From positions 1-36,030 of the forward strand of contig JAFDEE010000025.1 of assembly GCA_019310525.1 (NCBI GenBank): 36,030 nucleotides of DNA, in the 5' to 3' direction. The notes beneath the pieces are model-generated. The model ran no database searches. It had not been told where the DNA came from and was given only the letters and a program-made list of their open reading frames with translations. The translations under genes and the position numbers were made by a program. Position 1 is the stretch's first letter. Each line of letters starts with the position of its first letter. This document shows positions 119 to 25,500 of the stretch, in pieces. Source of the DNA: Deltaproteobacteria bacterium. GTDB taxonomy: Bacteria; Desulfobacterota; DSM-4660; Desulfatiglandales; HGW-15.

Positions 119-134
119 CTTTGAAGGTGTTTTT

Positions 135-177
135 ATTGCATAATGATACCGATTTGATTAATCAATTACGATGCAAT
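135..177 (+). promoter_or_regulatory. AT-rich palindromic region before the efflux operon
   Basis: A perfect 12-bp palindrome TTGATTAATCAA (154-165) is enclosed by a perfect 7-bp inverted repeat (ATTGCAT 135-141, ATGCAAT 171-177). TTGCAT at 136-141 followed 17 bp later by TAATCA is a possible weak promoter. The region lies 37-80 bp upstream of the TolC start codon, so an operator/promoter role is plausible, but no regulator can be named. Confidence 0.4.
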
Positions 178-213
178 AGGGTTAGGATACTACATGGGTT
201 GGAGGACGGGGAT

Positions 214-2100
214 ATGCCGTCGAATGAGGTTCAAAGGGGGGTGTTTCTGGATAGGAGAGGGATTCATCCCTTTTTTTGGCTCATGATACCCTTTGTCCTG
301 ATCTTCTCCGGAGCAGGGTGTAAGAGCACTTCACAACACCTCCGTGATGCAGACGAGGCCGCCCTTGCAATCATCAGGGAAAAACAGGAACAGGCCGTCG
401 GCAGGCATGAAGGATTTGATATCCGGCCCGAGAATATCCTGAGGAGGAGGCTCCTTTTAGACCAGGCACTTCCCTATTCGAGCGAGGCATCCCTCGGCAC
501 GGACAGGCTCCACCCTGTTGAACATTGGCCTGAATTGTATGACAAGACCCGGTCACGCCCCCCTGATACGTCCATAAATATCCCCATAGACAAACCCCTT
601 AAGCTCACCCTTATCCAGGCCCTCCAGGTGGGTGCCATGAACAGCTCGGCATATCAATCCAAAAAGGAGGACGTGTTTCGGGCCGCCCTTGACCTTGACC
701 TCAGGAGAAATGACTTTAAATACATCATGGAAGCTAAGGGAGATCTTTCTTATACCAATGATGGGTCAGGGAGCCTGACCCCAAAAGGGACCGTGAGGGG
801 GATTGAGATCGGCGGCTCGTTGGATGTCAAGAAGGACCTGATTCACGGTGCGGGCATAGCGGCCTCGCTTGTACTGGACCTGGCCAAACTCCTCAGCCAC
901 GGCATGACTTCTTCCCTCGGGATCTCCGCCGATACCTCCATCTCTATTCCCCTCCTCAGGGGTTCTGGCAGGCATATTGTGGCGGAGCCCCTGACCCAGG
1001 CCGAGCGGAACGTCATCTATGCCATATATGAATTTGAGAGGTTCAAAAAGGTCTTTGCAGTAGAGATTGCCGGCAGTTACCTTTCAGTTCTGGAACAGCA
1101 GGAACGTGTGGGAAATGCCACTAAGAACTATAATAACCTCAGGGAATCGACAAAGCGGTTGAGGATGTTGGCCAATGCGGGCCGTTCAACAGAGATAGAA
1201 GTGGATCAGGCGGTCCAGAGGGAGCTTGCCGCAAGGAACCGTTTGGTCCGGGAAAGGGAACTGTATAAGGGCCTCCTCGATGCCTTCAAGAGGGACCTCG
1301 GCCTGCCCCCGGATGCAGCGGTGGAACTAGACAGGTCCGAGATAGAGGGCCTCATAAGCAAAATCCTCCAGGAACAGGGACTGCGGGAGGACCCTGAATT
1401 CATCTATAAGGCGGAAGGGAAGCCCGGTCCCTTGGAGATGGATGCCACGAAAGCAATAGAGATCGCCCTTGAGAATCGCTTGGACCTCAGGATCATAGAA
1501 GGCAAGGTCCTTGACGCCCAGCGGAAGGTGGTGGTCAGGGCCGATGCCCTCCGACCTGAACTGACCCTCTTTGGCAAGGCAGAGACAGGAGAAGGTCGGT
1601 CTCTTGCCAATGCCCACATGGCCGACGCTGATCCGGGATTGGATAAAGGGGTCTATACAGGGATCTTGAGCCTCGACCTCGCCCTGGACAGGAGCGGAGA
1701 GAGGAATGAACTCCGGAAGGCCCTTCTTGACCTTGAGAAGGCCGTGAGGGACCTGCAGGATCTTGAAGACGACATCAAGCTGGCCGTTAGAAATAGGCTG
1801 AGGGACATGCTTGAGGCCAGGGAAGGCCTGAGGATACAATATCATGCCCTTGCCCTGGCTGAAAAGAGGGTGAAGAGCACCGACCTCTTCTTCAGGGCGG
1901 GAAGGGCCCAGGTCCGGGACATACTGGATGCAGAAGAGGCCCTGATCAATGCAAGGAACGCCCTGATGGAGGCCGCTGTGAATTACAGGGTGGCCGAACT
2001 GGAATTCCAAAGGGAGATAGGAACTCTGAAGATCGATGAGAGGGGAATCATGGAGGACTTTGTCCTGATAGGTAAGGAAGATGCCAAAGGAGACCAATAG
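214..2100 (+). CDS. TolC-family outer-membrane efflux lipoprotein
   Basis: Outer-membrane channel of a tripartite efflux or export system, 628 residues from the ATG at 214. That start is preferred because GGAGG lies 9 bases upstream and it gives a clean lipoprotein signal: basic N-region, hydrophobic stretch 19-31 and lipobox SGAG-Cys36. An upstream in-frame TTG at 121 would add 31 unlikely residues. The body has two halves with long helical heptad-rich stretches, as in the two OEP repeats of TolC proteins, and the second half contains the typical ALINARNAL-type helix near the end. It overlaps the next gene by 20 bases, so the operon is TolC-HlyD-ATPase-permease. It is longer than many TolC proteins (about 450-500 residues), with extra sequence before the first OEP repeat. 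Substrate unknown. Confidence 0.85.
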   Translation: MPSNEVQRGVFLDRRGIHPFFWLMIPFVLIFSGAGCKSTSQHLRDADEAALAIIREKQEQAVGRHEGFDIRPENILRRRLLLDQALPYSSEASLGTDRLHPVEHWPELYDKTRSRPPDTSINIPIDKPLKLTLIQALQVGAMNSSAYQSKKEDVFRAALDLDLRRNDFKYIMEAKGDLSYTNDGSGSLTPKGTVRGIEIGGSLDVKKDLIHGAGIAASLVLDLAKLLSHGMTSSLGISADTSISIPLLRGSGRHIVAEPLTQAERNVIYAIYEFERFKKVFAVEIAGSYLSVLEQQERVGNATKNYNNLRESTKRLRMLANAGRSTEIEVDQAVQRELAARNRLVRERELYKGLLDAFKRDLGLPPDAAVELDRSEIEGLISKILQEQGLREDPEFIYKAEGKPGPLEMDATKAIEIALENRLDLRIIEGKVLDAQRKVVVRADALRPELTLFGKAETGEGRSLANAHMADADPGLDKGVYTGILSLDLALDRSGERNELRKALLDLEKAVRDLQDLEDDIKLAVRNRLRDMLEAREGLRIQYHALALAEKRVKSTDLFFRAGRAQVRDILDAEEALINARNALMEAAVNYRVAELEFQREIGTLKIDERGIMEDFVLIGKEDAKGDQ

Positions 2101-3871
2101 GAAAAGAGGATCGAGGAAAAGACAAATACTGGTTTCCTCCCTCCTCATCCTGCTGACCATTGTCCTGGCCTCTTGGGCCTTTGTGGGTTTTTCCAAGGAC
2201 GATGGATCATTGGGTGATATGCCAGTGTTTTCGGTGAAGAGGGGTCCCCTGAAGATCAGTATAACGGAATCGGGGACCATCCAGGCCAGGGAGAAGATCA
2301 TTGTCAAGAGTGAGGTAGAGGGAAGGACTTCTATTATATACCTCGTGGATGAGGGGACAAGGGTCAAAAAAGGGGACCTCTTGGTGGAACTGGATGCCAG
2401 TGCGCTCCTGGACCAGAAGATCGATCAGGAGATAAGGGTCCAGAACGCGGAAGCGGCGTTTATCTCGGCACGGGAGGCCCTTGCAGTGGTGGAGAACCAG
2501 GCACAGAGCGATGTGGATATCGCCCGACTGAACTATGACTTCGCCCTCCAGGACCTGGAAAAATACACCCAGGGAGAATATCCAAACCAGTTAAAGGAGA
2601 TGGAATCCAAGATCACCATCGCTAAAGAGGAGCTCACGAGGGCCAGAGAGAGGCTGGAATGGTCGCGGAGGCTCTTTGAAGAGGGATATATTTCACAGAC
2701 AGAACTCCAGGCCGATGAGTTGGCAGAGAAAAAGGCCCTCCTTGACTTAGAGCTGGTGAAAAATGAACAGGGGCTTCTGAAGGATTTCACACACAAGAGG
2801 CGTCTTGCGCAACTTGAGAGCGATGTCAAGCAGGCCAAGATGTCTCTTGAAAGGACGATCAGGAAGGCAAAGGCCGATGTAGTCCAGGCAAAGGCAAACC
2901 TTGCAGCGAAGGAATCAGAATACAAAAGGCAACAGGACAAACTCCAAAGGATCGAGTCCCAGATCCGGAAGACGAAGATCTATGCCCCGGCAGACGGCCT
3001 GGTCATCTATGCCACAAGCGCGGACCGGGGCCACCGCTTCGGTCCCAGGCCCGAGCCACTCTCAGAGGGGGCCACTGTCCAGGAGAGACAGGAATTGATA
3101 CACCTACCCACCACGTCGGGTTTCAATGCAGAGATCGGGGTCTATGAGGCCAGTCTGGATAAGGTCAAGCCGGGCCTGCAGGTGGATGTGAAGGTGGACG
3201 CCCTTCCAGGGGAGAGATTTTCGGGCAGGGTCGTTTCCATAGCGCCCCTGCCCGATCCCAGGAGCGCCTTTTTAAACCCTGACCTGAAGATATATGACAC
3301 GGTCATCCGACTCGATGACAGCGTAAACACCCGACTCCTCAGAAGCGGCATGAGCTGCAACGCAGAGATAATCGTGGCGGAGTATGAAGATACGGTCTAT
3401 GTCCCTGTGCAGGCAGTGCTCCAGGTCAGGGGCAGGCCGACGGTCTATGTCGTAGAAGGGGGAAAGATCCACCCCAGGGTCGTGGAGACAGGCCTCAGCA
3501 ACAACAGCATGATCAGGATCATCCAAGGGTTGGAGCCGGGGGAGTTGGTCTCCCTGGCCCCTCCACTCTCTGAGGCGGCACTTGATGTGCCAGGGCCTGT
3601 TACCTCTACAAAAGGAGGAGCAAAAGGACCCGCTACCAAGGGGGCCCCTATCGCAGGGATCCAGGGCCGCTCTTTCGGAGAGGCCTTTATCAAGACAGCG
3701 GACAAGGATGGCGACAACAGGGTCTCAAGGGACGAGTTCAGAGGTCCGCCGGAGGTCTTTGACCGTCTTGACAAGGACAATGACGGATATATCACTGTCA
3801 GTGAAGCGCCTGAAAGGGTCCCGCCTCAGGGTGAGAGACAAGGCCAGGTTCTTTCGGGAGGCCTCCCTTGA
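2081..3871 (+). CDS. HlyD/MacA-family periplasmic adaptor with C-terminal EF-hand pair
   Basis: Membrane-fusion protein of 596 residues linking the MacB-type inner-membrane transporter to the TolC-like channel. A basic N-terminus is followed by a membrane anchor at about 17-37. A barrel/lipoyl half-motif is near 50-110 (IIVKSEVEGRTSIIYLVDEG), a very long coiled-coil hairpin runs from about 125 to 300, then come the second lipoyl half (IYAPADGLVI) and beta-barrel domains to about 500. The C-terminus is unusual: after a Gly/Pro/Lys-rich linker it carries two canonical calcium-binding loops, DKDGDNRVSRDE (541-552) and DKDNDGYITVSE (564-575), both with Asp at 1, 3 and 5 and Glu at 12. This suggests Ca2+ binding in the periplasm. 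The ATG overlaps the TolC gene; the stop overlaps the next start (TGATG). Confidence 0.85.
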   Translation: MPKETNRKRGSRKRQILVSSLLILLTIVLASWAFVGFSKDDGSLGDMPVFSVKRGPLKISITESGTIQAREKIIVKSEVEGRTSIIYLVDEGTRVKKGDLLVELDASALLDQKIDQEIRVQNAEAAFISAREALAVVENQAQSDVDIARLNYDFALQDLEKYTQGEYPNQLKEMESKITIAKEELTRARERLEWSRRLFEEGYISQTELQADELAEKKALLDLELVKNEQGLLKDFTHKRRLAQLESDVKQAKMSLERTIRKAKADVVQAKANLAAKESEYKRQQDKLQRIESQIRKTKIYAPADGLVIYATSADRGHRFGPRPEPLSEGATVQERQELIHLPTTSGFNAEIGVYEASLDKVKPGLQVDVKVDALPGERFSGRVVSIAPLPDPRSAFLNPDLKIYDTVIRLDDSVNTRLLRSGMSCNAEIIVAEYEDTVYVPVQAVLQVRGRPTVYVVEGGKIHPRVVETGLSNNSMIRIIQGLEPGELVSLAPPLSEAALDVPGPVTSTKGGAKGPATKGAPIAGIQGRSFGEAFIKTADKDGDNRVSRDEFRGPPEVFDRLDKDNDGYITVSEAPERVPPQGERQGQVLSGGLP

Positions 3872-4584
3872 TGGAACCCTCAAGGAATGATCAGGAAATC
3901 ATAATACTCGAAGGCGCCACCAAGATCTACCCTATGGGTTCCCAGGCGGTGAGGGCCCTTGACAATATAAGCATCGCCTTTAAGAAAGGGAGTTTTTGGG
4001 CCATTATGGGCCCGAGCGGATCCGGCAAGAGCACCATGATGAATATCCTTGGCTGTCTTGACCGCCTCACGAAGGGACGATACCTCCTTGAGGGTCATGA
4101 TGTGAGTGAGCTGGATGATGATGCATTGAGCGAATTCAGGCTCAGGCACCTGGGTTTTATCTTCCAGAGCTTCAACCTTATCCCCCAGCTTACGGTCCAG
4201 AAGAACATCGAACTGCCCCTGTATTACCTGGGTTGGGATCCACGAGAAAGCAGCAGGCGTGCCGAGGAACTTGCAAACCAGGTGGGGCTCGAGGGAAGGC
4301 TCGATCACAGGCCTTCGGAGCTGTCCGGCGGGCAGATGCAGAGGGTGGCCATAGCAAGGGCCATGGCCAACGACCCGATGATACTCCTTGCAGATGAGCC
4401 CACCGGGAACCTGGATACGACCACTGGGAGGCAGATTCTGGAACTCCTCGACGGGCTCCACGACCGTGGAAAGACCATCATCATAGTCACTCATGAGGAA
4501 CAGATAGCACAGTATGCGGAAAACAGGCTCTACATGAGGGACGGGGTCATAGAAAGGCTGGAAACCAGGGATGCTGGGACATAA
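3871..4584 (+). CDS. MacB/LolD-type ABC transporter ATPase
   Basis: 237-residue ATP-binding subunit. Walker A GPSGSGKS lies at 47-54, the ABC signature LSGGQMQRVAIARA in the C-terminal half, and Walker B ILLADEPTGNLD just after; the order and the LADEPTGNLD wording are typical of the MacB/LolD/FtsE group. It should energise the permease encoded directly downstream, and with HlyD and TolC forms a MacAB-TolC-like pump in which ATPase and permease are separate proteins. ATG at 3871 is chosen because it overlaps the HlyD stop as TGATG and has GGGAGG 9 bases upstream; the TTG three bases earlier is less likely. It overlaps the next gene by 14 bases. Confidence 0.92.
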   Translation: MEPSRNDQEIIILEGATKIYPMGSQAVRALDNISIAFKKGSFWAIMGPSGSGKSTMMNILGCLDRLTKGRYLLEGHDVSELDDDALSEFRLRHLGFIFQSFNLIPQLTVQKNIELPLYYLGWDPRESSRRAEELANQVGLEGRLDHRPSELSGGQMQRVAIARAMANDPMILLADEPTGNLDTTTGRQILELLDGLHDRGKTIIIVTHEEQIAQYAENRLYMRDGVIERLETRDAGT

Positions 4585-5842
4585 CAGGCTGACAAGGGAC
4601 ATCCTGTTGGGGATCGAAAACCTGAAGCTCCACAAGCTCCGGTCCTTCCTCACCATGTTGGGCGTGGTCTTCGGCGTGGGGAGCGTCGTGGCCATGCTGG
4701 CGGTCGGAGAAGGCGCGAGCAAGGAGGCCCTAGAACAGATCAGGAAGGTGGGGAGCAATAATATCTTGATAAACTCGGTGAAGTCCGTTGAGGAGGAGGC
4801 CCCTTCCACCACGAGGGTCCGAATGAGTGTATACGGCCTGACCTATAATGACTTTGACAGGATCTCCCAGACGTTTTCTACCATAAAAGAGGCCGTCCCC
4901 GTCAAGCTGGTCAGGGAGGAGGGCCGCCTGGGCGAGAGGTCCCTTGAGCTCAGGGTGGTGGGGACCACACCGGCCTGGTTTGACCTGGTCAGGAGACCCA
5001 TTATTGGTGGGAGGGTCCTGATGCCACTGGATTCCATAAATAAGGCCCCTGTGGTCGTGCTCACAGAGTTCGGGGCCCGGAGGCTCCTTGCCACCAGGAA
5101 CACCATAGGACAGGACATCAGGATCGGGGGCAACAGTTTCAGGGTGATCGGGATCGTCATGAGCGAGAAGGGAAGCTCTGGAGGTATCCAGCTACCGGAC
5201 CAGGTAGTGGATGCCTATATCCCTATCGAGGTGGCCAAGGCCTATTATGGGGATACGAGCATCAAGAGGACATCGGGTTCCTTTGAGATGAAGAGGGTGG
5301 AATTGGACCAGATCATCCTGGAGGTGACAAGGATGGAGGAAGTGGAAAGGACCGCCAAGGGCCTTGAGGCCATGCTGGAGCGTTTCCATGACAAGAAGGA
5401 CTATGTGATGAGCGTCCCCCTGGCTCTCCTGAAGCAGGCGGAGGCCACAAAGAGGACCTTTAATATCGTCCTGGGTTCCATTGCTGGTATCAGCCTCCTG
5501 GTGGGAGGGATAGGTATCATGAATATCATGCTCGCCTCTGTGACCGAAAGGACCAGGGAGATCGGGATCAGAAGGGCCATTGGCGCGAAAAAGGGGCAGA
5601 TCATCACCCAGTTTCTCATAGAGACGGTTGTCCTCTCCACGATTGGGGGCATCGCGGGACTGGGACTCGGGGTTTTCATCCCCCTCCTGATCACTTACAT
5701 TGCCGCCATGCCCACAGTTATAACCCCTTTAAGCATCATACTGCCCCTTGTGATCAGCATGGGTATAGGCATCATCTTCGGGCTCTACCCCGCCGCCCGC
5801 GCAGCGGAAGTGGATCCCATAATCGCCCTCAGGCACGAATAG
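4571..5842 (+). CDS. MacB-type ABC transporter permease (FtsX family)
   Basis: 423-residue permease. One N-terminal membrane span (about 26-46) is followed by a large periplasmic MacB_PCD-type domain, then three C-terminal spans (about 297-317, 347-375 and 386-405). The motif ERTREIGIRRAIGA at about 324-337 is the hallmark of MacB/FtsX permeases, and the protein ends AAEVDPIIALRHE as usual in this family. It starts inside the ATPase gene (14-base overlap), indicating translational coupling. Substrates of such systems include macrolides, peptides, lipids or siderophores; nothing in the sequence decides among them. Confidence 0.9.
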   Translation: MLGHNRLTRDILLGIENLKLHKLRSFLTMLGVVFGVGSVVAMLAVGEGASKEALEQIRKVGSNNILINSVKSVEEEAPSTTRVRMSVYGLTYNDFDRISQTFSTIKEAVPVKLVREEGRLGERSLELRVVGTTPAWFDLVRRPIIGGRVLMPLDSINKAPVVVLTEFGARRLLATRNTIGQDIRIGGNSFRVIGIVMSEKGSSGGIQLPDQVVDAYIPIEVAKAYYGDTSIKRTSGSFEMKRVELDQIILEVTRMEEVERTAKGLEAMLERFHDKKDYVMSVPLALLKQAEATKRTFNIVLGSIAGISLLVGGIGIMNIMLASVTERTREIGIRRAIGAKKGQIITQFLIETVVLSTIGGIAGLGLGVFIPLLITYIAAMPTVITPLSIILPLVISMGIGIIFGLYPAARAAEVDPIIALRHE

Positions 5843-12833: not shown

Positions 12834-13547
12834 TTATTGGCGCTTTTCGCGGCAGTCCGGACCCTGACCCTGGGGGGCCAGGGAGACCATGATTTTTTGG
12901 GCGATTCCCCGCCCCAGGGCCAGGCGGGAGCATTCGTGACCTACGATCATCCGGCCTTTGCCGTTGTTGTTGATCACCTCCAGGATGTCTCCCGGGCGAA
13001 ACCCCATTGCAGCCAGCCTGCCGATCATCTCCCTTCCCCCCCTGATTTCCTTGATGATGACACTTTCACCGTTTTTGGCCATGGCGAGGGGGAGCAACGG
13101 CCTCCTCTTGGCCAGGCATGCGCTGCAGAGGCCGTAAATCTCCATCTTGTGCTGGAGCATATGGAACCCTCTCCGGGCCGCTATCTGGAGCTGAAGCCGT
13201 TCCAGTGCCTCGTCCCTGAACTCTTCGATTTTCCCGCACCTGGTGCAGATAAGATGGTCGTGGTGGCGGCCCAGATGGCGATGCTCGTAACGGGGGGGCT
13301 GGCCTTCAAATTGTTTTTTCTGGGCGAATCCGTGTTCTACCCAGCGATTGAGACATTGCTGAACAAAGGCGGGATCGTAATCGTATCCGCTTTTCCTGAG
13401 GATCTCCACCAGGTCTTCGACCGTCACATGCTCCTCGGTCCCCAGAAAGGCGTCGATCACATGGAGCCTCTTGTCCAGGTCCCCGGTGGTGTCTGATTCG
13501 ATGAGGTTCCTGAAATTGTCCTTTTCAAACTCGTTGTCATGGATCAT
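12834..13547 (-). CDS. Fur-FeoA fusion protein (Fur-like domain plus FeoA SH3-like domain)
   Basis: 237 residues from the ATG at 13547 (AAGGA upstream). Residues 20-148 are Fur-like: winged helix, HHDHLICTRCG (95-105) and the structural zinc pairs Cys101/Cys104 and Cys141/Cys144. Residues 158-225 form a FeoA-like domain: GRLAAMGFRPGDILEV (176-191) and HECSRLALGRGIAQKIMV (204-221). The usual Fur recognition helix (S-x-A-T-V-Y-R-x-L) is replaced by DPAFVQQCLNRW (58-69), so DNA specificity or DNA binding itself may differ. FeoA domains are also found at the C-terminus of DtxR/IdeR regulators, so this looks like the analogous architecture on a Fur scaffold. It lies 35 bp after a normal Fur gene and is probably co-transcribed with it. 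Confidence 0.85.
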   Translation of the reverse strand: MIHDNEFEKDNFRNLIESDTTGDLDKRLHVIDAFLGTEEHVTVEDLVEILRKSGYDYDPAFVQQCLNRWVEHGFAQKKQFEGQPPRYEHRHLGRHHDHLICTRCGKIEEFRDEALERLQLQIAARRGFHMLQHKMEIYGLCSACLAKRRPLLPLAMAKNGESVIIKEIRGGREMIGRLAAMGFRPGDILEVINNNGKGRMIVGHECSRLALGRGIAQKIMVSLAPQGQGPDCREKRQ

Positions 13548-13582
13548 GGGAATAGGTCCTTCAGATCCCGGAATAGAAAGGG

Positions 13583-14017
13583 TTACTGTTTTTTCCTGCA
13601 CTCCGGGCAATAACCCAGCACATCCATCCTATGGTCTATGATTTGAAAGCGGTACCTCTCCTCCAGGCGCTTTTCGATATTTTTCAGCTCCTCTTCGTAA
13701 AATTCAATGACCCTCCCGCACCGAATGCAACGGAGGTGGCAGTGGTGTTCCCGGCCGTACAGGGGTTCGTAATGCATGTGTCCGTCCTGGTGCCATACTT
13801 CCTTGATGAGGCCGCATTCCAGGATAAGCGGAAGGTTGCGGTAAATGGAGGCCTTGGAAACCTTGCTGCCCTTTTTGCGAAGCCGTAGGTAGAGCTCATC
13901 TACATCGAAATGTTCCCGGCTCGCGAAGATCTCCTCGATGATCATTTCCCTTTCAGGGGTGTTCCGCAGGCCTTTCTCACCAATGAAGGAACGGAAAAGC
14001 TCTACCTCCTCTCCCAT
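13583..14017 (-). CDS. Fur-family metal-responsive regulator
   Basis: 144 residues, canonical Fur/PerR/Zur length. The HTH includes SKASIYRNLPLILECGLI (54-71) with the family Tyr-Arg; the regulatory metal region is HHCHLRCIRCG (91-101), and the zinc pairs are Cys97/Cys100 and Cys137/Cys140. It could sense Fe2+, peroxide or Zn2+; sequence alone does not decide. AGGAG six bases before the ATG. A near-perfect promoter and an AT-rich stretch resembling a Fur/Per box lie directly upstream, so autoregulation is likely. First gene of a two-gene unit with the Fur-FeoA fusion. Confidence 0.92.
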   Translation of the reverse strand: MGEEVELFRSFIGEKGLRNTPEREMIIEEIFASREHFDVDELYLRLRKKGSKVSKASIYRNLPLILECGLIKEVWHQDGHMHYEPLYGREHHCHLRCIRCGRVIEFYEEELKNIEKRLEERYRFQIIDHRMDVLGYCPECRKKQ

Positions 14018-15048: not shown

Positions 15049-15672
15049 TCACCTGTGCATGTGCCCGTAAAGGTCCCTGAGAATTCTTTCGGCGATCCTC
15101 GCCATCGCCCCGCTCATGGCCTCGGCTACTGCCTCGGGGGTTCTGTCCTTGCAAGGTTGTTCTTCCCGATAGGTCTTCTGGAAGATTACCCCGCGCTGGA
15201 TGTTTGGTTCCCGATCGGCAATAAGGGCCACCGAGAGCGTGAGAACCGCCTTCCAGGTTTCTCCGGTGTCCCATTCGAAGAATTCGTCCACCGATCCTTC
15301 CAGGAGATAATCTGAAGGCCCCTTGCTGTCATAAGGAAGTACGGCCTTGAAAAGACCACTGGATTTGAGGTCTCTTTGGAGATAGGAGCTCACGAGGTCG
15401 CCGGGGTTCGCCCGCCACTTGTGGTAATGGTAGGTCTGTCTCCTGAAGGCTTTGTCCCTGTAAACAATGGGGATCCTGTTGTAAGGGGCCGCCACGCTGA
15501 AGCGCTGGACCCGGACTACGCACTCAAGGGGTCTAAGGCCCTCCAGGCGGGGCGGGGGATATTCAAGCGTATAGTAATCCACCTTGTTGCTGGGCTGTTC
15601 CAGGCCCAGGCAGGAAGGGAGGAGAAGGAAAAGGCCGACAATGATCACCTTAATGCGCTTGACACGGTTCAT
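15049..15672 (-). CDS. ABC-type transport auxiliary lipoprotein (PqiC/MlaD-partner type)
   Basis: 207 residues from the ATG at 15672 (AAAGGAG upstream). Signal peptide with a hydrophobic core IIVGLFLLLPS and lipobox LPSC, mature end at Cys21. The body has the pattern VDYYTLEYPPP, VVRVQRFSVAAPYN then YRDKAFRRQTYHYHKWRANP, typical of the auxiliary lipoproteins encoded at the end of MCE/Mla operons, which link the transporter to the outer membrane. Position after mlaE-mlaF-mlaD supports this. A 150-bp gap with repeat DNA separates it from mlaD. The longer open frame to 15819 runs through that repeat and is rejected as a start. Confidence 0.8.
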   Translation of the reverse strand: MNRVKRIKVIIVGLFLLLPSCLGLEQPSNKVDYYTLEYPPPRLEGLRPLECVVRVQRFSVAAPYNRIPIVYRDKAFRRQTYHYHKWRANPGDLVSSYLQRDLKSSGLFKAVLPYDSKGPSDYLLEGSVDEFFEWDTGETWKAVLTLSVALIADREPNIQRGVIFQKTYREEQPCKDRTPEAVAEAMSGAMARIAERILRDLYGHMHR

Positions 15673-15822: not shown

Positions 15823-16854
15823 TTAATCCTCGTTCTGTTTTTTCACGGCCTTTCGGGGTTGAAGCTCCCGGGGCGGGGGAGGTTCCCCGAAGAGCAGCCG
15901 GGAGGGATGTTCCGAGAGGGATTCGAGTAGCCGATCCAGGTTTTCACTCGCCTTTTCCAGATTTTGGGCCGTCACCATGAGGGATGCCTTGAGATCATAC
16001 AGGGAATCATCCGTATCCTTGAGCAGGACCGAGCCCTTCTCAAGGAAAAGGTTGGCGTTTTTCATGGTGCGGTTGAATTCATCGAAGGCGGTGTGGAGAT
16101 TTGCGCCTTCCCTTGCGAGAATGTCTTTCACCTGGGTAATGGCATCCCGGCCGTTGTCCATCATCCCGGCGGCCTTGTCAAGGGTGACGTTCAGGGATCG
16201 AGCCGCCTCTTCCACTGAAGCCAGGATGGCCTCCCATCGCTCATCCCGCAGGAGGCGGCCGGCGCTGTCAAAGGAGTCCTGGATGCTCCGGGACAGGCCC
16301 TTCAAGTCCGCATCGGATACGGCCTGGTTTAGATTGCTGATCGTGGCCTTGACCATATCCGAGATCTCCCGGAGCTTCAGGGACTTGATTTCCTGCAGAA
16401 CGTCGTCCAGACCTCCGAGCAGCAGGCTGATGTCCGAGGGTTTGGAGGCCACAACGGGGTATTTGGAAGGGAAGCTCAAGGGAGGGGAGCGGTCAGGCTC
16501 TCCAGGCTTTTTACGGTCCAGTTCCACGAACATGCTCCCTGTGATACCCACGGATTTCAACTGGGCCACGATGCTGCTGTCCAGCTCTTGGCCGGATTCG
16601 ATCTTCATGACGACCTGGATCAGCTTGGAATCAGGCGCCACCTCGATCCGGTCCACCCGGCCTATGGAGACGCCCCTGTATTTGACCGGAGAATCGATAT
16701 CCAGGCCCTGGACGGACTCGTTGAAATAGGTGACGTAATATTGACCCTTTTCAAGGAAACGGGACATCCCCAACCAGATAACCGCAGCAACGGCCAGGGC
16801 GAGACCGCAGAACACGAAGAGACCGACGGAAAATTTCATTCTCTGGGCATTCAT
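15823..16854 (-). CDS. MlaD-type MCE domain substrate-binding protein
   Basis: 343 residues. N-terminal membrane anchor (about 8-30), then an MCE domain (about 38-115) with YYVTYFNESVQGLDIDSPVK and the YRGVSIGRVDRIEV signature. The C-terminal 200 residues are helical and heptad-like, as in longer MCE proteins that form a hydrophobic tunnel. Role: the periplasmic part of an ABC system moving phospholipids or other lipids between inner and outer membranes. AAGGA precedes the ATG at 16854. It lies 102 bp after mlaF; that gap carries a 65-bp inverted-repeat element. Confidence 0.9.
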   Translation of the reverse strand: MNAQRMKFSVGLFVFCGLALAVAAVIWLGMSRFLEKGQYYVTYFNESVQGLDIDSPVKYRGVSIGRVDRIEVAPDSKLIQVVMKIESGQELDSSIVAQLKSVGITGSMFVELDRKKPGEPDRSPPLSFPSKYPVVASKPSDISLLLGGLDDVLQEIKSLKLREISDMVKATISNLNQAVSDADLKGLSRSIQDSFDSAGRLLRDERWEAILASVEEAARSLNVTLDKAAGMMDNGRDAITQVKDILAREGANLHTAFDEFNRTMKNANLFLEKGSVLLKDTDDSLYDLKASLMVTAQNLEKASENLDRLLESLSEHPSRLLFGEPPPPRELQPRKAVKKQNED

Positions 16855-16956: not shown

Positions 16957-17715
16957 CTACCTCATATTCTCAGCCTGCCGGTTGAAGAATTGCTTCACGA
17001 ATCGATTCTTGCTGTGATCCTTCAGATAATGCGGGTCGCCTTCAGCGATGATCCCGCGGGCCCTTTTGTCCAGCATGATGACCCGGTGGGCCACGGTGAA
17101 AATGCTTTGCAGTTCATGGGTCACGATTACCATGGTGGTGCCCAGGTTTTGATTGATCTTGATGATCAGTTCATCGAGTCCCGCCGAGGTAACAGGATCC
17201 AGTCCCGCGGAGGGCTCATCAAAGAACAGGATTTTCGGAGTCAAGGCCATGGCCCGGGCCAGTCCGGCCCGTTTTTTCATCCCCCCGCTGATCTCGGAAG
17301 GAAGGTAATCCTCATAGCCCTCCAGGCCCACCAGTCCGAGCTTCATGGTGACCAGGGTGTCCAGGGTCTCCTTGGGAAGGTCCGTGTGTTCGAGGATTGG
17401 AAGGGCCACATTCTCCGCCAGGGTCATTGACCCCAGGAGGGCGCCGCTCTGGTAAAGGATCCCGATTTTCCTCAAGACCTTCCGGAAAGTGCCTTCGTCG
17501 CACCTGGTGATGTCGTCTCCGTCGATTATGATTTTGCCCGAGACGGGCTGGAGGAGGCCCACCATGTGTTTCAACAGGGTGCTTTTTCCACATCCGCTCC
17601 CGCCCAGCACCACAAAGATCTCTCCCTCGTAAACATCGAAGGAGACATGGTCGAGGACGATCTCTTCGCCATATCCTCCCACCAGTTCCCGGACGCTGAT
17701 GATCGGCCTTCTCAT
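16957..17715 (-). CDS. MlaF-type ABC transporter ATPase
   Basis: 252 residues. Walker A GGSGCGKST (38-46), signature ISGGMKKRAGLARAM (141-155) and Walker B FFDEPSAGLDP (163-173). The ISGGMKKR-AGLARA and FDEPSAGLDP wording is diagnostic of the MlaF/MKL group that powers MCE lipid transporters. It pairs with the MlaE permease encoded 15 bp upstream, from the same message. AAGGGGG site before the ATG. Confidence 0.95.
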   Translation of the reverse strand: MRRPIISVRELVGGYGEEIVLDHVSFDVYEGEIFVVLGGSGCGKSTLLKHMVGLLQPVSGKIIIDGDDITRCDEGTFRKVLRKIGILYQSGALLGSMTLAENVALPILEHTDLPKETLDTLVTMKLGLVGLEGYEDYLPSEISGGMKKRAGLARAMALTPKILFFDEPSAGLDPVTSAGLDELIIKINQNLGTTMVIVTHELQSIFTVAHRVIMLDKRARGIIAEGDPHYLKDHSKNRFVKQFFNRQAENMR

Positions 17716-17730: not shown

Positions 17731-18879
17731 TCAACCCCAGTACCGAAGGATTACGGCGAAAAGGGAATCCGAAAGTATGATCAGGAATATGCTGCTCACC
17801 ACGGCTGAGGTGGTGGCTTGGCCTACCCCGGCGGCGCCCCCGCTGACCCGGAATCCCCTTAGGCAGCCGATCCAGGAGATCAACAGGGCGAACACCCCGC
17901 TCTTGGCGAATCCCCAGGCCACGTCGAAAAGAGTGAGGGTCTTGATGGTCTGGCTCATGTAAGCGCTTGCCGTAAGATCCAGCATGAAGATCCCTACGAT
18001 CATACCTCCTGCTATGGCGAAAAGGTCCGAGAAGAGGGTCAGGAAGGGAACGACCACAACGCTGGCGATGATCTTCGGGACCACCAGGAAACGGGTGGGA
18101 TCGAACCCCATGGTGAAGAGTGCATCCACCTCCTCCGATATCTTCATGGTGCCGATTTCCGCCGCAAAGGAAGAGCCGGATCGGCCCGCCACGATGATGG
18201 CCGTCATGATGGGCCCCAGTTCGCGGACCATGGCCAGGCTCACCAGGGAGGCCACGTAGATGTTGGCGCCGAACTGCTGGAGCTGAACCGAAGACATGAA
18301 GGCCATGATGAGGCCGAGGAGGAAACTGATGAGTCCCACGATGGGGAGGGCATCCACCCCGGTTTTCTGCATGTAAAGAAAGGTGTCTTCGAGACGGAGT
18401 TTCCTGGGGTGGACCAGGATGAAGAGGAGCGCAAGGGTGACGGAGCCGAGGAAAGAGATCATGTATTTCAGATCTCCCAGGATCCTCAAAGTCCCTTCCC
18501 CCAGGCGCACGAAGGTGCCGGGACGGGGGGGCTTTCCAAATGCATGCTTCCGGCCCGCCGAATCCAGGTCGAAAAGGGAAAGGATCTCCTTGACCTTGCC
18601 GCTCGCATTCAAAAGCCGGTAACCGCCCCTCTCCGGGTGCAGGGTCTTTTTCAGTTCAAGGAGGACCAGGGCCCCGAAGTCATCAAGGTAAGAGACATCC
18701 ATCAGGTCCACAGTCAGGAAAGAAGGCGGATGTTTTTTCAACCGCGGGAGCAATTCGCGGAGCAGGGGCGCCGCGCTGGAGGAGTCCAGCACGCCCTTGA
18801 AGCGAATCCTCGTGCCTTTGTCATCTTCGGTAAGGATATAGCGGAAGGGCGGCTTTTCTATGGATCGGTCGGGGATCAT
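17731..18879 (-). CDS. MlaE-type permease with N-terminal STAS (MlaB-like) domain
   Basis: 382 residues. Residues 1-105 form a STAS-like domain (LTVDLMDVSYLDDFGALVLL), equivalent to MlaB, fused to an MlaE permease of about 260 residues with five to six spans and the family motif MVRELGPIMTAIIVAGRSGS then FAAEIGTM. The fusion of MlaB and MlaE is common in Deltaproteobacteria. Start ATG overlaps the stop of the preceding sensor gene as ATGA, so the two are translationally coupled. Together with MlaF, MlaD and the lipoprotein it makes a complete inner-membrane transporter. Confidence 0.92.
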   Translation of the reverse strand: MIPDRSIEKPPFRYILTEDDKGTRIRFKGVLDSSSAAPLLRELLPRLKKHPPSFLTVDLMDVSYLDDFGALVLLELKKTLHPERGGYRLLNASGKVKEILSLFDLDSAGRKHAFGKPPRPGTFVRLGEGTLRILGDLKYMISFLGSVTLALLFILVHPRKLRLEDTFLYMQKTGVDALPIVGLISFLLGLIMAFMSSVQLQQFGANIYVASLVSLAMVRELGPIMTAIIVAGRSGSSFAAEIGTMKISEEVDALFTMGFDPTRFLVVPKIIASVVVVPFLTLFSDLFAIAGGMIVGIFMLDLTASAYMSQTIKTLTLFDVAWGFAKSGVFALLISWIGCLRGFRVSGGAAGVGQATTSAVVSSIFLIILSDSLFAVILRYWG

Positions 18880-20183
18880 GGTTTTTTGAAACGAAAATTC
18901 CTCAGTCCCTCTTCATCTACGCCGTAATTTTCCTTGAGCAGTTCAACATCCATCTGAAAGATGAGCCAGCCCAAGAAACGTCCCTCCTTCGTCAATTCGA
19001 AGGCGAGTTCCAAACCCTTGCGTCCCATGGGGTGTTCCTTGCTGACCCGGTAAACCACCAGGACCCTGTGAAGGGAGTTGTCGTCTCCCTGGAATTCTAT
19101 CCCTGCGTAACTGTTTCCACGCATCCGTGAGGCCTGGAAGTCTTTTTCCGGTGAATAGGCGTCGAAGACCCTTTTCCGGGGATCCAGGAGCACCAGGCCC
19201 ACATAAGGGGATCGTTCGCTCTGGATCTGGAAGAACTCCTTCATTACGGCTGTGGTCTTTTCCCTGTCTCCGTTGATCATGGGCTCGGCCAGCAAGGACT
19301 TCAGGAGGAGCAGATCCCTGGCGATTTGGTCTCGGAGGCTTGACTTCTTGAGATCCACCGTCTTTTGTGTATCCACGAGGTAGGGATAGCCGAAGAACAG
19401 CCCCGCCCCTATAAGAACGAGGAGGATCAAGGGAGGCAGGATCAGGTTCCTGGCCCGTTGGTAGCGTCTCTCTAACTTCTTGACCGAGGTCACGTCCCGC
19501 CCGAGGGAGAGCACCCCCTGGCAATCGTGTTGTCCGTCGTAAAGCAAGGTCGTACTGGTGGAGACATAGCGTATGCCCATTTCGGGATGGCGTACCTTCA
19601 GGATTTTTTCCCGAACCGAATACCTGGACTCCACTTCTTCCAGGAAATCGCGGTAGGCGTGGGGTTCCTCGTAGATCTCCTCCACGTTGCGATTCTGCAT
19701 CTGGGTCCAGTCCCGGCCGTATAGTTTCTCGGCGGCGGAGTTCCAGGTGAGGATCTTGCCATCCCGGTCCGTTAGAATCACGGCGTCGGGAAGCTGGTCG
19801 CAGAACTCCTTGAGTCCGAAGAGGATCTGGCTGGTCTCGTTCAGGCGGCGGGCGAGGGCCTTGGTGATGGTTTCGGCGGCGTCCGGAAAGTCCCTCAAGA
19901 ACTGGGTGATCTCCTCCCTGGGGATGCAGATGACCGTTACGTCATCCCTGGCCCGGGCCGTGGCTGTCCTCTTGGAGTCAAGGAGAAAGGACATCTCCCC
20001 GAAGAGGGCCCCCTTCTCCTTGATCTCGTTGATCTTCATGTTGCCCTTGATGATTTCCAGTTCGCCGGATACCAGGATGTAGAGATCCTGTGCATCGTCC
20101 CCTTCGAGGAAGATGATGTGTCCGGCCTGGTAGTGGGTAATATACTTCTCAAGGGCCGGGTGATTGACGACCTCGTCCAGCAT
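18876..20183 (-). CDS. cNMP-binding / PAS / membrane / Cache-like sensor protein
   Basis: 435 residues in four parts. A cyclic-nucleotide-binding fold (about 10-115) has LYILVSGELEI and FGEMSFLLDSKRTATARA (61-78). A PAS domain (about 125-235) has DAVILTDRDGKILTWNSAAE. One membrane span (about 247-267) follows the positively charged RRYQRAR, giving cytoplasmic N and periplasmic C termini. A C-terminal domain (about 270-435) has LLLLKSLLAEPMINGD and YVGLVLLDPRKRVFDAYS, resembling a single Cache/sensor fold. No histidine kinase, GGDEF, EAL or HTH output is present. It is the first gene of the Mla operon and overlaps mlaE by four bases. A weak ribosome site precedes the ATG. Signalling to the transporter is inference. 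Confidence 0.8.
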   Translation of the reverse strand: MLDEVVNHPALEKYITHYQAGHIIFLEGDDAQDLYILVSGELEIIKGNMKINEIKEKGALFGEMSFLLDSKRTATARARDDVTVICIPREEITQFLRDFPDAAETITKALARRLNETSQILFGLKEFCDQLPDAVILTDRDGKILTWNSAAEKLYGRDWTQMQNRNVEEIYEEPHAYRDFLEEVESRYSVREKILKVRHPEMGIRYVSTSTTLLYDGQHDCQGVLSLGRDVTSVKKLERRYQRARNLILPPLILLVLIGAGLFFGYPYLVDTQKTVDLKKSSLRDQIARDLLLLKSLLAEPMINGDREKTTAVMKEFFQIQSERSPYVGLVLLDPRKRVFDAYSPEKDFQASRMRGNSYAGIEFQGDDNSLHRVLVVYRVSKEHPMGRKGLELAFELTKEGRFLGWLIFQMDVELLKENYGVDEEGLRNFRFKKP

Positions 20184-20220
20184 GGTAAATGTGCCTGAAA
20201 TTTCAAATAATATTCAATCG

Positions 20221-20249
20221 AGTATAGAGAAAAGCCTTGCCGGAGTCAA
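20221..20249 (-). promoter_or_regulatory. Sigma70-type promoter of the sensor-Mla operon
   Basis: Minus strand: TTGACT (20249-20244), 17-base spacer, TATACT (20226-20221), about 40 bases before the sensor start codon. The intergenic stretch up to 20420 otherwise holds a GC-rich inverted repeat around 20300-20318 (GGGGCCGCAGGCCCC). Confidence 0.7.
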
Positions 20250-20420
20250 GGACGCTCTTATAGGCGACGGGAGAGAGGGACCTTTTGCGGATCGGACACA
20301 GGGGCCGCAGGCCCCCGGGTTGACCTGGGAAAGGAAAGACCGTGCCCTGCGGGACCCTATTTAAACCCCGCGGTAGTTATGGTATGGTTGTCGTGCCGCA
20401 TCCATGGGGAGGAGGTGAAC
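20250..20420. other. Intergenic stretch between divergent operons
   Basis: Holds the upstream side of the sensor-Mla promoter, a GGGGCC-type inverted repeat (20300-20315) and a strong ribosome site for the cNMP-FHA gene at 20407-20415. No clear plus-strand promoter was found. Confidence 0.35.
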
Positions 20421-21182
20421 ATGGAGGTCAATGCTCTTCGGGTTTTCAAGCCGGGTGAAGTGATCATAGAGGAAGGCTCGAAGGGGACGTCTGCCTTTAT
20501 CGTGCTCTCAGGGGCCGTTGAGGTACTCAAGAGATCGGTAAAGGGAGAGGTCTTAGTGGCAACCCTGGGAGTTGGCCAGGTCTTCGGGGAAATGGGGTTG
20601 ATAGAGGATCGTCCCCGTTCGGCCACGGTAAGGGCCCTGACGGAACTCAAGGTGCGGGAGATAAATCGTGAGGATTTCAACGAACTCCTGCGGACCAAGC
20701 CGTCGGTGCTCATTCCGATCATGAAGTCCCTTTTTGAGAGGCTTCGGCAGGCGGGCGACCGGCTGGCCGCTTGCTGGGATCCGGAGGGAGAGGTGGAACG
20801 CTCCTTCGAAGTGATCATGGAGGGCCAGACCGCCGAGGCCAGAGAAGTACTCGAGGGGCGTCGTCTTCTCATCACCAAATTTCCGTTTCTCATAGGTAGA
20901 GAGGCGGAAAGTCCGGCGACGGACGTGTTTTACAATAATGATCTCTTCATCAGGGAGAGCCGACCTTATTTGGTCTCCCGTAACCACCTGGCTATCAGCA
21001 ACGAGGGAGGGAGCATGTGGATCCTCGATCGGGGAAGCGCCTTCGGCACAATTGTCAACGGCCGGGAGATCGGCGGTGAGACCGGGATACTGCGCGCCCC
21101 CCTCGATAAAGAGGAAAACCAGTTGATAATCGGGCCCGCTACCTCCAGATTCATCTTTCTCCTGAAGGTCGTACCTCTGTAA
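20421..21182 (+). CDS. cNMP-binding and FHA domain protein
   Basis: 253 residues from the ATG at 20421, with GGAGGTG five bases upstream. The N-terminal cNMP-type fold (about 5-115) has FIVLSGAVEVL and FGEMGLIEDRPRSATVRA (55-72). The C-terminal FHA domain (about 145-250) has Gly159-Arg160, Ser186, Asn188-His189, Ser206, Gly209-Thr210 and Asn213-Gly214 in the usual order, implying recognition of a phosphothreonine peptide. No DNA-binding or enzyme domain. It is divergent from the cNMP/PAS sensor and precedes a nuclease/ATPase gene pair (114-bp gap). A signalling adaptor role is likely; the partner kinase is not in the window. Confidence 0.85.
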   Translation: MEVNALRVFKPGEVIIEEGSKGTSAFIVLSGAVEVLKRSVKGEVLVATLGVGQVFGEMGLIEDRPRSATVRALTELKVREINREDFNELLRTKPSVLIPIMKSLFERLRQAGDRLAACWDPEGEVERSFEVIMEGQTAEAREVLEGRRLLITKFPFLIGREAESPATDVFYNNDLFIRESRPYLVSRNHLAISNEGGSMWILDRGSAFGTIVNGREIGGETGILRAPLDKEENQLIIGPATSRFIFLLKVVPL

Positions 21183-21296
21183 ACCCGACCCGCCTCCGAA
21201 CCTCCAGGGGGAGAGTGGTTGGTACCCGTCAGGAATCCGATTTCCGCTCCCAAAGGCCCGAAGCCCTGGAAAGCAATCCGAATCAAGGAACAGCCA

Positions 21297-22562
21297 ATGC
21301 CCGCATTTTCCTTTGTCCATGCCGCCGACCTTCACCTGGACACCCCCTTTTCGGCCGTTCGGCGGAATAACGAGGAACTGGGATCGGCCCTTCGCCGGGC
21401 CGCCTTCGATGCCTTTGAGGGCCTGATTCGGCTTTGCCTCGAAAAGACCGTGGATTTTCTGCTCGTAGCGGGCGATGTCTTTGACGGAGGGGAGCGGAGC
21501 ATCCAGGCCCAGGTCCGCTTCAGGGCCGGGCTGGAACGTCTTTCGGAGGCCGGCATTCGGACCCTTGTGGTCCACGGGAACCACGATCCCTTGTCCAGTT
21601 GGTCCTCGAGCCTTCAATGGCCCCCGGGGGTCCATGTGTTCGGGGAGCGGTTGGAAACCGTCCCCGTCGAGAGGGAAGGGAGATTGCTGGCCCGCGTGCA
21701 GGGAATCAGCCACCCTAAAAGGGATGAGAGAAGAAACCTGGCCCGGCTCTTCAGGCGTGAGGACGCCGCCTTCCATATCGGCCTCCTCCACGCGAACGTC
21801 GGTTCCGATACCGGGCACGAACCTTATGCCCCCTGCTCCCTCGGTGACCTGAGGGAGGCCGGGATGGATTACTGGGCCCTTGGCCACGTGCATTCCCGGA
21901 GAATCCTTTCCCCGGATTCCCCGGCCGTGGTCTATCCTGGAACCATCCAGGGCCGCAATATTCGTGAGGCGGGGGAAAAGGGGTGCTATCTCGTGCGAGT
22001 GAGCGAAAGCAGGGAGATCGATCTGGAATTTCACCCCACCGATATGATCCGCTGGATCCTGCGGGAGATCCGAATCAACGGGCTGGAGACGGAACAGGAT
22101 CTCCTGGAGACGCTTGAGAGGACTTGCGAGGAGATCTCTCTGGACGGGGCGGGACGTCCTGCCATCGCTCGTATCAGGCTTACCGGAAGCGGTCCCCTGC
22201 ACCGCCGTCTCATGCGGCCCGAGTGGGTGGATGAGCTCCTGGAAGTGCTTCGGGAGGCGTGGATGGCCCGGGATCCCTTTCTCTGGGTGGAAAGGTTGGA
22301 GAGGGATACCTCACCGCCTGCGGACCTGGAGACCCTCGCCCGGGGAGAGGACTTCCTGGGGGAGCTGCTTCGCTATTCCCGTGCCCTGCGTAGGGAGCCG
22401 GATTTCGAGGAACGCATAAGAAGGGAATTGGCCCCCCTTTTTGAAACCCCGTGGTCGAGGAACTTCCTGGATCCTCCCGACCCGGGAAAACTGAAAGAGT
22501 TGCTTCGGGCGGCGGAGGGTATTTGTTTTGAGGAGCTTTCGGGCGGAGAGGAAATCGATTGA
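21297..22562 (+). CDS. YhaO/SbcD-like metallophosphoesterase (DNA exonuclease family)
   Basis: 421 residues. Calcineurin-like phosphoesterase motifs in order: DLHLD (11-15), GDVFD (59-63), GNHD (94-97), then HANVG and GHVHSR in the middle, followed by about 170 residues of C-terminal accessory sequence. This is the SbcD/Mre11 family, and the opening SFVHAADLHLDTPF matches the YhaO subgroup. With the downstream SbcC/YhaN-like ATPase it should form a Mn2+-dependent nuclease complex acting on DNA ends or hairpins. ATG at 21297 is chosen because homology starts there (AAGGAA upstream). It overlaps the next gene by four bases. Confidence 0.9.
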   Translation: MPAFSFVHAADLHLDTPFSAVRRNNEELGSALRRAAFDAFEGLIRLCLEKTVDFLLVAGDVFDGGERSIQAQVRFRAGLERLSEAGIRTLVVHGNHDPLSSWSSSLQWPPGVHVFGERLETVPVEREGRLLARVQGISHPKRDERRNLARLFRREDAAFHIGLLHANVGSDTGHEPYAPCSLGDLREAGMDYWALGHVHSRRILSPDSPAVVYPGTIQGRNIREAGEKGCYLVRVSESREIDLEFHPTDMIRWILREIRINGLETEQDLLETLERTCEEISLDGAGRPAIARIRLTGSGPLHRRLMRPEWVDELLEVLREAWMARDPFLWVERLERDTSPPADLETLARGEDFLGELLRYSRALRREPDFEERIRRELAPLFETPWSRNFLDPPDPGKLKELLRAAEGICFEELSGGEEID

Positions 22563-25500
22563 GACTGGAGCGGATTTACATCGACGGTTTCGGGGTGTTT
22601 CACGATCTCCTGATCGAGGGGTTGTCCCCGGGACTCACGGTATTCCTGGGGCATAACGAGTCCGGGAAGACAACGCTTCTAAGTTTTGTGCGCACCTTGC
22701 TCTTTGGTTTCCCCCGGGGAAAGGAAAATCCTTACCCTCCCCTTGCAGGCGGAATGCACGGGGGGAACGTGACCCTGACAGCGGCCGATGGGGAAGTCTA
22801 CCAGGTGGAGCGCCGTCCAGGGCCTCACGGCGGGAGGGTGAATGTGTTTTGCCGCGACAGGGGAACCAGCGGGGGAAGGGAGCTCCTGGAGCGCCTCCTC
22901 GGGACGGCCAGCCGAACCCTTTACAGGAATGTGTACGCCTTCAGCCTGTCTGAACTCCAGCACTTCGAGACCCTGAATGACGCAGCGCTCCGGGAAGCCC
23001 TTTACAGCGCCGGGGCCGGCCTGGATTCCCATGTGCTGAACAGTTTCAAGGGCAGGCTTGAGAAATGGGAGGATCGTCTTTACAAGCCCAGGGGAAACAA
23101 GCCCCGGATCAACAGCCTTCTCCGGCGCCTCAGGGAAATCCGGAAGGAAAAGCAGGCCCTCCATGGAAATCTGGACCGCTACGACGAGATCAGGTCCAGG
23201 ATCCCGGAATTGGAAGGGAAAATCGCGAAGATCGAGGAAGAGCGTATAGGCCTTTCCCGGGACCTGGGAAGGATCGAGACGAGGATTCGGGCCTGGCAGG
23301 ACTGGGTCCATATCCGGGTGACCGCCGAGAAACTGGAGTCCCTCCCCACCATAGATGATTTCCCGGCCGACGGAGTCGCCCGGCTCGACACCCTGTCGGC
23401 CCGGCTCGCGGACGTGGAAAAGAGCCGTCTTGAGAAGCAGGAAGACCTGGAACGCCTGGAGGGGGATCTTTCGGACCTCAAACGGGATCCCGGGATCCTG
23501 GCCCTGAAGGAGGAAATTGGACGGATCCAGATGGGACAGGGGCGATTCGAGGCCCTTTGCCAGGAGCTTCAAAGTTTAAGGCTGGAGATCGCCGGGGCGG
23601 AAAGGCGCCTGCAGGAAGACTTGGAACGATTGGGCCCTGGATGGGGAGAGGACAGGATCCTCTCCTTTGATCTTTCCATCGCCCTGGCAGAGGAGGTCCG
23701 GCGCCAAGGGCAGGCCCTTGCCCGGGCCGAGAGGGAACTTCAGGGAAGACGGGCGGTTCATGAAGGCATCGTCTCCCGATTGCGGGAGGCGGAGGAGGCC
23801 TTCGGGGTTCTTCAAGCTGGGTTGAGGGGTGACTGGGAGCGGCTGGAAGAGAAGGAGAGGGCTTGTCGCCGCCTGGCCCGTTTTCAACATCGCCTGGAAT
23901 TCCTGGAAAGGGATCTCGGTCACCTAAAGGAACGCCTGGAAGAGTGCCGGGAAGAGCAGGAATCCCTCTTGGGGGCCCTTGAAACAGGGAAAGGGAGGCA
24001 GCGCCTGATCCCCCTTCTCTTGGCCCTGGGCCTCCTGGCGTTGGCCTGGGCCGCATACGGGAGAGAAGTGGCTCCGGAGGTCTTGTTGCCGGGGATCCTT
24101 TTGCTCCTTGCCCTTCTGTTCTGGGTGTTCCGGCGGGAGACACCAGGGCTGGCGCGAATCCAGGCTCGCCTCCGGGACCTGAAGGGTAGGGTGGAGGACC
24201 TGGAGGAAAGGAAGTCATCCGCTGAGAAGGAGAGGGAGTCGATCCTCGAGGAGATGGATAAGTTTGCCCGGATCCTGGGAGTGGGGGAGGTTCCGGATCC
24301 CGGGGTGCTCGAGGAGATCGAGCGGGGCCTGGCGGATCAGGCCGATGCCCGAAAGGCATGGCGGCGGGCACAGGAAGAAGTGGATCGGATCCGACGGAGG
24401 CGGGAAGAGTCCCTGGCAGAGCTCGAGGCCGAGACGTCGAGGTGGGAGGAGATCCAGGGGAGGTGGGAGCGCTGGCTGGAGGAAAGGGGCCTGGACCCGG
24501 GTCTTACGCCGGAAGGAGCCTTGGAGGTGATTGGGTTGATCCGATCCTGCCGGGAGCAGATCCAGTCCCTGGAACGCCTCAGGGATCGCCTTGGGGCCGC
24601 GGAGGAGGAAAGGTCCGTTTACGTGTCCCTGGTCAATGAGGTCATGGCCCGCAGCGGGGAGGTTCCGGGAACAGGTAAAGACATAGAGGGCAGGGTCCAG
24701 GGAATCGTCGAGAGATACCGGGAGGCTGAACAGGCCGAGCAGAGGTGGATCCTGATCACCAGAGAGATCTCTTTGTGCCGTGAATCCATGAAGCGGCTGC
24801 AGGAGCGTGCCGCCGCCCTCGAGGCCCGGATCAGTGACCTCCTGGCCGCAGGAGGAGCCGATCATGAAGAGGAATTCCGAAAAAGGGCCGGGATTTTCGA
24901 GAAACGCAGAGCCCTGGAAGGGGAACTGGAGATTCACAAGGACAACCTGAAACGCCTCGCCGGGCATTCAGAAGACCTGGCGGCTCTGGAGAAGAATCTT
25001 TCGGAAACCAGCCTGGAAGAGCTGGAGCGGAGTCGAGCCGAACTTGCGGAAAGAATGGGGGAGTTGGTCGAGATCCGGGACCTCCTGAAGAAGGAACAAG
25101 CGACCCTGGAAGAACAGGCCCGCCAATTGATCCGCGATGACCGGATGTCCGCCCTCCGCTCTGAGGAGGAAGACCTACGGGCCGAACTGGCCGAACTGGC
25201 CGAGCAGTGGGCGGTGATCAGGATCGCCCGCAATCTGTTGCAGGGCGCCGCCCAGCGTTATGAGAGGGAACGCCAGCCCGCGGTGATCAGGGAGGCAGGA
25301 CGCTTTTTCAAAATCCTCACCCTAGGCGCCTATTCCGCCATCGTGGCCCCTTTGGGGGAAGACCGTATCCATGTCGTCCGCAGGGATGGAGGCCGAAGGG
25401 AGATCGGAGAGTTGAGCCGGGGCACGGCAGAGCAGCTTTACCTGTCCCTCCGGTTCGGTTTCATCCGGGAATTTTCCCGCCGCTCCGAACCCCTGCCCGT

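Follow-up and report, generated by a model that had tools for sequence, protein, structure and literature searches.

We found a candidate two-sided receptor subunit of an Mpc-type lipid transporter in a 36,030-nucleotide stretch of bacterial DNA (the window). The first gene of the transporter operon encodes a 435-residue protein, here called the sensor. It is predicted to cross the membrane once, with the N-terminus in and the C-terminus out, and the state of its cNMP-binding and PAS domains would act through a periplasmic Cache domain. We give this reading, in which we infer both the coupling and its direction, about an even chance of being correct. The sensor very probably serves the lipid transporter, and perhaps a cyclic-nucleotide signal controls lipid traffic through it. 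The domain content, topology and operon position were read from the sequence and from structure models, as was the lipoprotein consisting of the Cache domain alone at the same position in sister families. The ligand, the direction of the signal, the contact between sensor and transporter and the effect on transport would be as proposed below. The link to the Cache lipoproteins is the most useful new lead. The features of the operon are the following:

20221-20249, minus strand: promoter-like site TTGACT-17-TATACT upstream of the sensor gene
18876-20183, minus strand: sensor gene, 435 aa, first in the operon (cNMP-binding domain, PAS domain, one transmembrane span, Cache domain)
19893-20138, minus strand: cNMP-binding domain, residues 16-97 (Pfam PF00027, 71.5 bits)
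19491-19805, minus strand: PAS domain, residues 127-231 (Pfam PF00989, 46.3 bits)
19374-19445, minus strand: single transmembrane span, residues about 247-270, within one predicted helix (232-303)
18879-19370, minus strand: predicted periplasmic Cache-fold domain, residues 272-435, homologous to exported lipoproteins encoded before mlaE in other families
17731-18879, minus strand: STAS-MlaE permease, 382 aa, overlapping the sensor gene by four bases
18562-18810, minus strand: STAS domain of MlaE, with Asp at the usual Ser/Thr phospho-site (LDDFG)
16957-17715, minus strand: MlaF-type ATPase
15823-16854, minus strand: long MlaD, 343 aa, MCE domain at residues 37-113
15049-15672, minus strand: PqiC-type auxiliary lipoprotein, 207 aa, lipobox LPSC (PF03886, 44.1 bits)

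Domains and topology of the sensor

Both open reading frames, of 435 and 382 aa, are present on the minus strand. The sensor gene ends and mlaE starts within the same ATGA, which is the four-base overlap with a STAS-fused mlaE described in the sequence-only reading of this DNA. The sigma-70-like site upstream of the sensor gene was found once, against 0.2 expected from shuffled sequences. The cNMP-binding and PAS domains score well above the Pfam cut-offs (27.5 and 22.6 bits, respectively), and the Pfam search of the sensor returned no kinase, GGDEF, EAL or HTH family. Thus, the earlier description of a one-span protein with these two domains and without kinase, GGDEF or HTH output was borne out. 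Judged by its sequence, the sensor appears to lack any enzymatic or DNA-binding output, and the predicted periplasmic domain would be its sole recognisable output.

In the cNMP domain the phosphate-binding cassette is conserved. Gly62, Arg72 and Thr73 are invariant among 35 homologs and Glu63 is nearly so. The domain scores above the family cut-off and also carries the Glu/Arg cassette; binding of cAMP or cGMP is predicted. At least five class III cyclase open reading frames are encoded in the genome, so a source of ligand for this domain exists.

AlphaFold2 (25 homologs) modelled a cNMP domain, a PAS domain, a continuous helix (residues 232-303) and a C-terminal alpha/beta domain. The full-length model had a pLDDT of 84 and a pTM of 0.41, which leaves the relative placement of the domains uncertain. 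Since a fold search with the whole model was swamped by PAS, LOV and CRP domains, the C-terminal domain was folded alone (34 homologs; pLDDT 88.5, pTM 0.85). Its best structural matches in the PDB were Cache-type extracytoplasmic sensor domains (3lid, Z 12.2; 2p7j, Z 11.9; WalK, Z 11.8). The C-terminal domain is thus predicted to have the Cache fold that had been proposed for it. No Pfam model, including those for Cache, matched it above the cut-off. The LapD_MoxY_N model matched 1 of the 34 members, at E 0.047 only, and a PDB sequence-profile match to Rhobin9 (E 0.0036 over 54 residues) was without support from a related family.

The sensor has only one hydrophobic span. On average, there are 5.3 Lys/Arg in the 15 residues before the span and 3.1 in the 15 residues after it (35 homologs). 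The N-terminal flank has the excess in 30 of these homologs, the flanks tie in 5 and in none does it have fewer. Because of the single span and this Lys/Arg bias, the half with the cNMP and PAS domains is predicted to be cytoplasmic and the Cache domain periplasmic. The Cache lipoproteins homologous to this domain are exported, which is independent support for a periplasmic C-terminus. The sequence-only reading had hinged on this topology; a C-terminus in the cytoplasm was rejected on the same three grounds.

Linkage to mlaE and the stand-alone Cache lipoprotein

Among 61 relatives, 17 encode a nearly full-length homolog of the sensor, and another 34 homologs align at 39-65% identity, so the protein is not a product of chance. 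mlaE lies directly 3' of the sensor gene in 16 of the 17 relatives, and in the remaining one (G037) the sensor gene is broken and fused into this operon. Checked base by base, the distance from the sensor to the start of mlaE is between -23 and +74 nt in all 20 ortholog loci, counted per locus and not de-duplicated by species. Five genomes (G004, G027, G033, G008 and G016) have the orthologous operon without the sensor, which means that the gene is accessory. At one locus (L075, 11629-12969) internal deletions fuse the sensor to the end of MlaE, and at another (L049, 1090-1902) the sensor gene carries stops and a deletion; both could be decay or assembly errors.

The distant full-length homologs (39-45% identity) do not adjoin mlaE. 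Several of them, in Desulfarculaceae-type genomes, are flanked by a nitroreductase gene and a CobQ-like gene, and a TonB-dependent receptor is encoded further out (L046, L047, L048, L064, L066 and L069). Such a context hints that the receptor may also serve corrinoid uptake. The remaining unlinked full-length homologs have varied neighbours. In the tree of the sensor family the mlaE-linked genes form one group, which also contains a single small unlinked branch. Strict linkage of the whole family to mlaE was rejected, as 13 homologs from three lineages are located elsewhere. The proposal that homologs would be linked to mlaE in other genomes therefore stood within the order (20/20 loci), but did not extend to the full-length homologs of the Desulfarculaceae type, where the Cache domain alone precedes mlaE.

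In the Desulfarculaceae-type genomes, a small gene on the same strand is found upstream of the orthologous mlaE. Its product has a signal peptide that ends with Cys and is about 165 residues long in its mature form. Profile-profile comparison of seven of these lipoproteins with the C-terminal domain of the sensor gave a probability of 96.8 (E 2.8e-10). With 21 lipoproteins, the probability was 98.0 (E 1.6e-13) over 153 columns, including a common C-terminal tail. In the controls we obtained 8.2 for the PAS domain, 0.4 for the cNMP domain and 0.5 or less for column-shuffled alignments. Pfam searches with the lipoprotein forms returned weak Cache matches (dCache_1 at E 2.6e-4 at best).

A scan of the phylum found the Cache lipoprotein in 23 of 395 genomes. 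It stands directly before the orthologous mlaE in 22 of the 23 carriers (one copy is partial and one has an in-frame stop). These 22 genomes come from five families, none of which is the family of the window. At L159, near position 1501, an in-frame stop in the lipoprotein gene may be decay or an assembly error. Extra copies away from mlaE (L176-L182 and L160) have an asparaginase II gene as a neighbour in three genomes, and elsewhere an outer-membrane efflux protein or a xanthine/uracil permease.

The Cache lipoprotein at the same operon position is independent evidence of a functional tie between the Cache module and the transporter. On sequence comparison, the periplasmic Cache module is the element that both operon forms share, present either as a lipoprotein or as the C-terminus of the membrane-spanning cNMP-PAS protein. 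The lipoprotein form has no cytoplasmic part, so that the periplasm seems to be enough for the module to complete its effect on the transporter, and the cytoplasmic cNMP-PAS half would be an added control. We tentatively extend this to the phylum: a dedicated periplasmic Cache subunit may be common in Mpc-type transporters of Thermodesulfobacteriota, and one lineage may have joined it across the membrane to a cNMP-PAS receptor, which would bring lipid transport under second-messenger control without enzymatic output.

An Mpc-like lipid transporter

The permease has an N-terminal STAS domain (residues 24-106; 40.5 bits, cut-off 22.6) followed by the MlaE domain (residues 169-376; 254.8 bits, cut-off 22.5). 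E. coli MlaD has 183 residues, and the MlaD encoded here is much longer. There is no mlaC in the operon; MlaC is encoded on contig 92 together with a second MlaE. That contig (G000 contig 92, about 18440-23682; L001, L129 and L130) carries a canonical Mla operon of the same genome, with MlaE, MlaF, MlaD, MlaC and MlaA. The proteins of the window scored below the NCBIfam equivalog cut-offs, with 156 of 315 bits for MlaE, 199.5 of 441 for MlaF and 58.4 of 135 for MlaD. Because of these scores and the canonical set with MlaC elsewhere in the genome, we rejected the operon as canonical Mla. The sequence-only reading had called it an Mla operon; a lipid-transport operon with the sensor as its first gene it is, but of another type. 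The gene content (STAS-MlaE, MlaF, long MlaD, PqiC-type lipoprotein, no mlaC) indicates an Mpc-like, Mla-Pqi chimeric transporter, for which a bridge between the inner and outer membranes and movement of lipids are predicted.

The Mpc system of Brucella abortus, MpcEFDA, likewise has an MlaE with N-terminal STAS, MlaF, a long MlaD (331 aa, compared with 343 aa here) and a PqiC-type lipoprotein in an operon without mlaC (PMC12436622). In contrast to Brucella, the operon here has an extra first gene, which is the sensor (or the Cache lipoprotein in the sister families), and the genome has a canonical Mla set, which includes MlaC and MlaA, in addition.

The tree of MlaE, from a short search, has two clades (SH-aLRT 100). 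The sensor form is present in 16 of 21 assessable members of one clade and the lipoprotein form in 21 of 24 members of the other. The STAS phospho-site, placed by alignment to RsbV-type STAS, is Asp in the sensor clade (22/22), while it is Ser or Thr in the lipoprotein clade (24/24). In anti-sigma antagonists, Ser or Thr at that position is phosphorylated. This split is compatible with cNMP/PAS control having taken over from STAS phosphorylation, but it is only suggestive. The tree shows it as one change, from which causation cannot be concluded, and the Asp is also present in the five genomes that lack the sensor. For both reasons we rejected it as a proof by correlated traits.

Regulation of intermembrane lipid transporters is largely open, and this operon is a concrete candidate for it. 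Control of MlaF by MlaB/STAS has been described in a study which left the question of transporter regulation open (PMC7367683). Here too a regulatory domain is placed on the same ABC core. However, the STAS domain is fused to MlaE, its Ser/Thr site is Asp and the sensor would form a further membrane-spanning layer.

Direction of signalling and other possible roles

A two-sided receptor is suggested by the operon order, the four-base overlap and the tight linkage to mlaE in 20/20 loci. It is further suggested by the topology, the Cache fold, the lack of another output domain, the conserved cNMP cassette and the cyclases, and by the 22 genomes, from five other families, in which the Cache lipoprotein directly precedes the orthologous mlaE. 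The five sensor-less operons, the distant full-length homologs in other contexts and the Cache lipoproteins away from mlaE count against it. In the proposed mechanism, the input would be cyclic nucleotide in the cytoplasm, together with the state of the PAS domain. The signal would travel along the continuous PAS-TM-Cache helix to the Cache domain, which would tune transport through a target in the periplasm. This target may be MlaD, the PqiC-type lipoprotein or some lipid-related ligand. Binding of a periplasmic ligand to the Cache domain may feed back.

LapD is an inside-out receptor for c-di-GMP. Its cytoplasmic part binds the nucleotide and is linked across the membrane to a PAS-like domain in the periplasm, which was shown to act on a partner there (PMC3032553); the sensor would work in the same way. 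LapD has two spans, a HAMP domain and degenerate GGDEF/EAL domains, binds c-di-GMP and holds a protease (PMC3032553), whereas the sensor has one span, cNMP and PAS domains and a terminal Cache domain, and its gene adjoins a lipid transporter. Neither HAMP nor degenerate GGDEF/EAL was found in it by the Pfam search. Inside-out signalling was also proposed for DvhD of Desulfovibrio vulgaris, which similarly combines a periplasmic Cache with a cytoplasmic PAS and a nucleotide-binding module, but its Cache is a double one, its c-di-GMP switch is of the HD-GYP type and it targets adhesin proteolysis (PMC13090378). By analogy with LapD and DvhD, cytoplasmic nucleotide would set the periplasmic domain of the sensor, with a cNMP/PAS input and a lipid transporter as the target; the sensor is a member of neither family. 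Our literature search for MlaE linked to Cache or cNMP domains found none, with most subscription journals outside its coverage.

The signal could also run inward, with the Cache domain sensing a periplasmic ligand or the envelope state and the PAS/cNMP part acting in the cytoplasm, where its target would be either MlaF or the STAS domain of MlaE. Cache domains are mostly ligand sensors that signal inward, and the fold matches are sensors of the Cache type. We still consider this direction unlikely, as PAS and cNMP domains are themselves input domains and a homologous Cache lipoprotein without a cytoplasmic part is paired with the same transporter in five other families. MlaF is indeed regulated by STAS domains (PMC7367683), and members of the sensor clade have Asp at the phospho-site, but this Asp is also found in the sensor-less genomes.

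Even less probable is that the Cache domain, rather than being a sensor, handles lipids or has a structural role in the periplasm, for instance as a carrier or assembly factor replacing MlaC, and that the cNMP-PAS half would control its assembly or amount. The operon has no mlaC, with MlaC on another contig, and the domain keeps to the first place in the operon whether it comes as sensor or as lipoprotein, as such a role would have it. However, its best fold matches are to sensor domains only, Mpc-type systems are thought to span the periplasm without a carrier (PMC12436622) and absence from five genomes speaks against a core part of the transporter. That the sensor gene is merely co-transcribed and serves another process, as the full-length homologs in other contexts such as the CobQ-like and TonB-receptor cluster might indicate, is highly improbable given the near-overlapping linkage to mlaE in 20/20 loci and the fact that five other families have the Cache domain by itself linked to mlaE.

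The Cache module comes with the transporter in two versions, one of which is attached to a cyclic-nucleotide receptor. This makes second-messenger gating of lipid transport, as in the two-sided receptor reading, directly testable, and the sister families with Cache alone are a natural control. Of wider interest is the receptor layout itself, with cytoplasmic cNMP-PAS, one span and a terminal Cache domain.

The divergent neighbour of the operon (20379-21182, plus strand) encodes a protein in which a canonical cNMP-binding domain is joined to an FHA domain. This gene also adjoins the operon in L024 and lies directly beside mlaE in the sensor-less L034 and L035. We rejected it as a fixed operon partner, since it is beside the operon in a few relatives only. 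Downstream of the operon are two overlapping FUR-family genes on the minus strand (12834-13610 and 13583-14017), the first of which is a FUR-FeoA fusion. At 2081-3871 (plus strand) the window encodes an HlyD/CusB-type membrane-fusion protein with C-terminal EF-hand repeats, which belongs to a MacB-type efflux set (121-5842) that includes an outer-membrane efflux gene.
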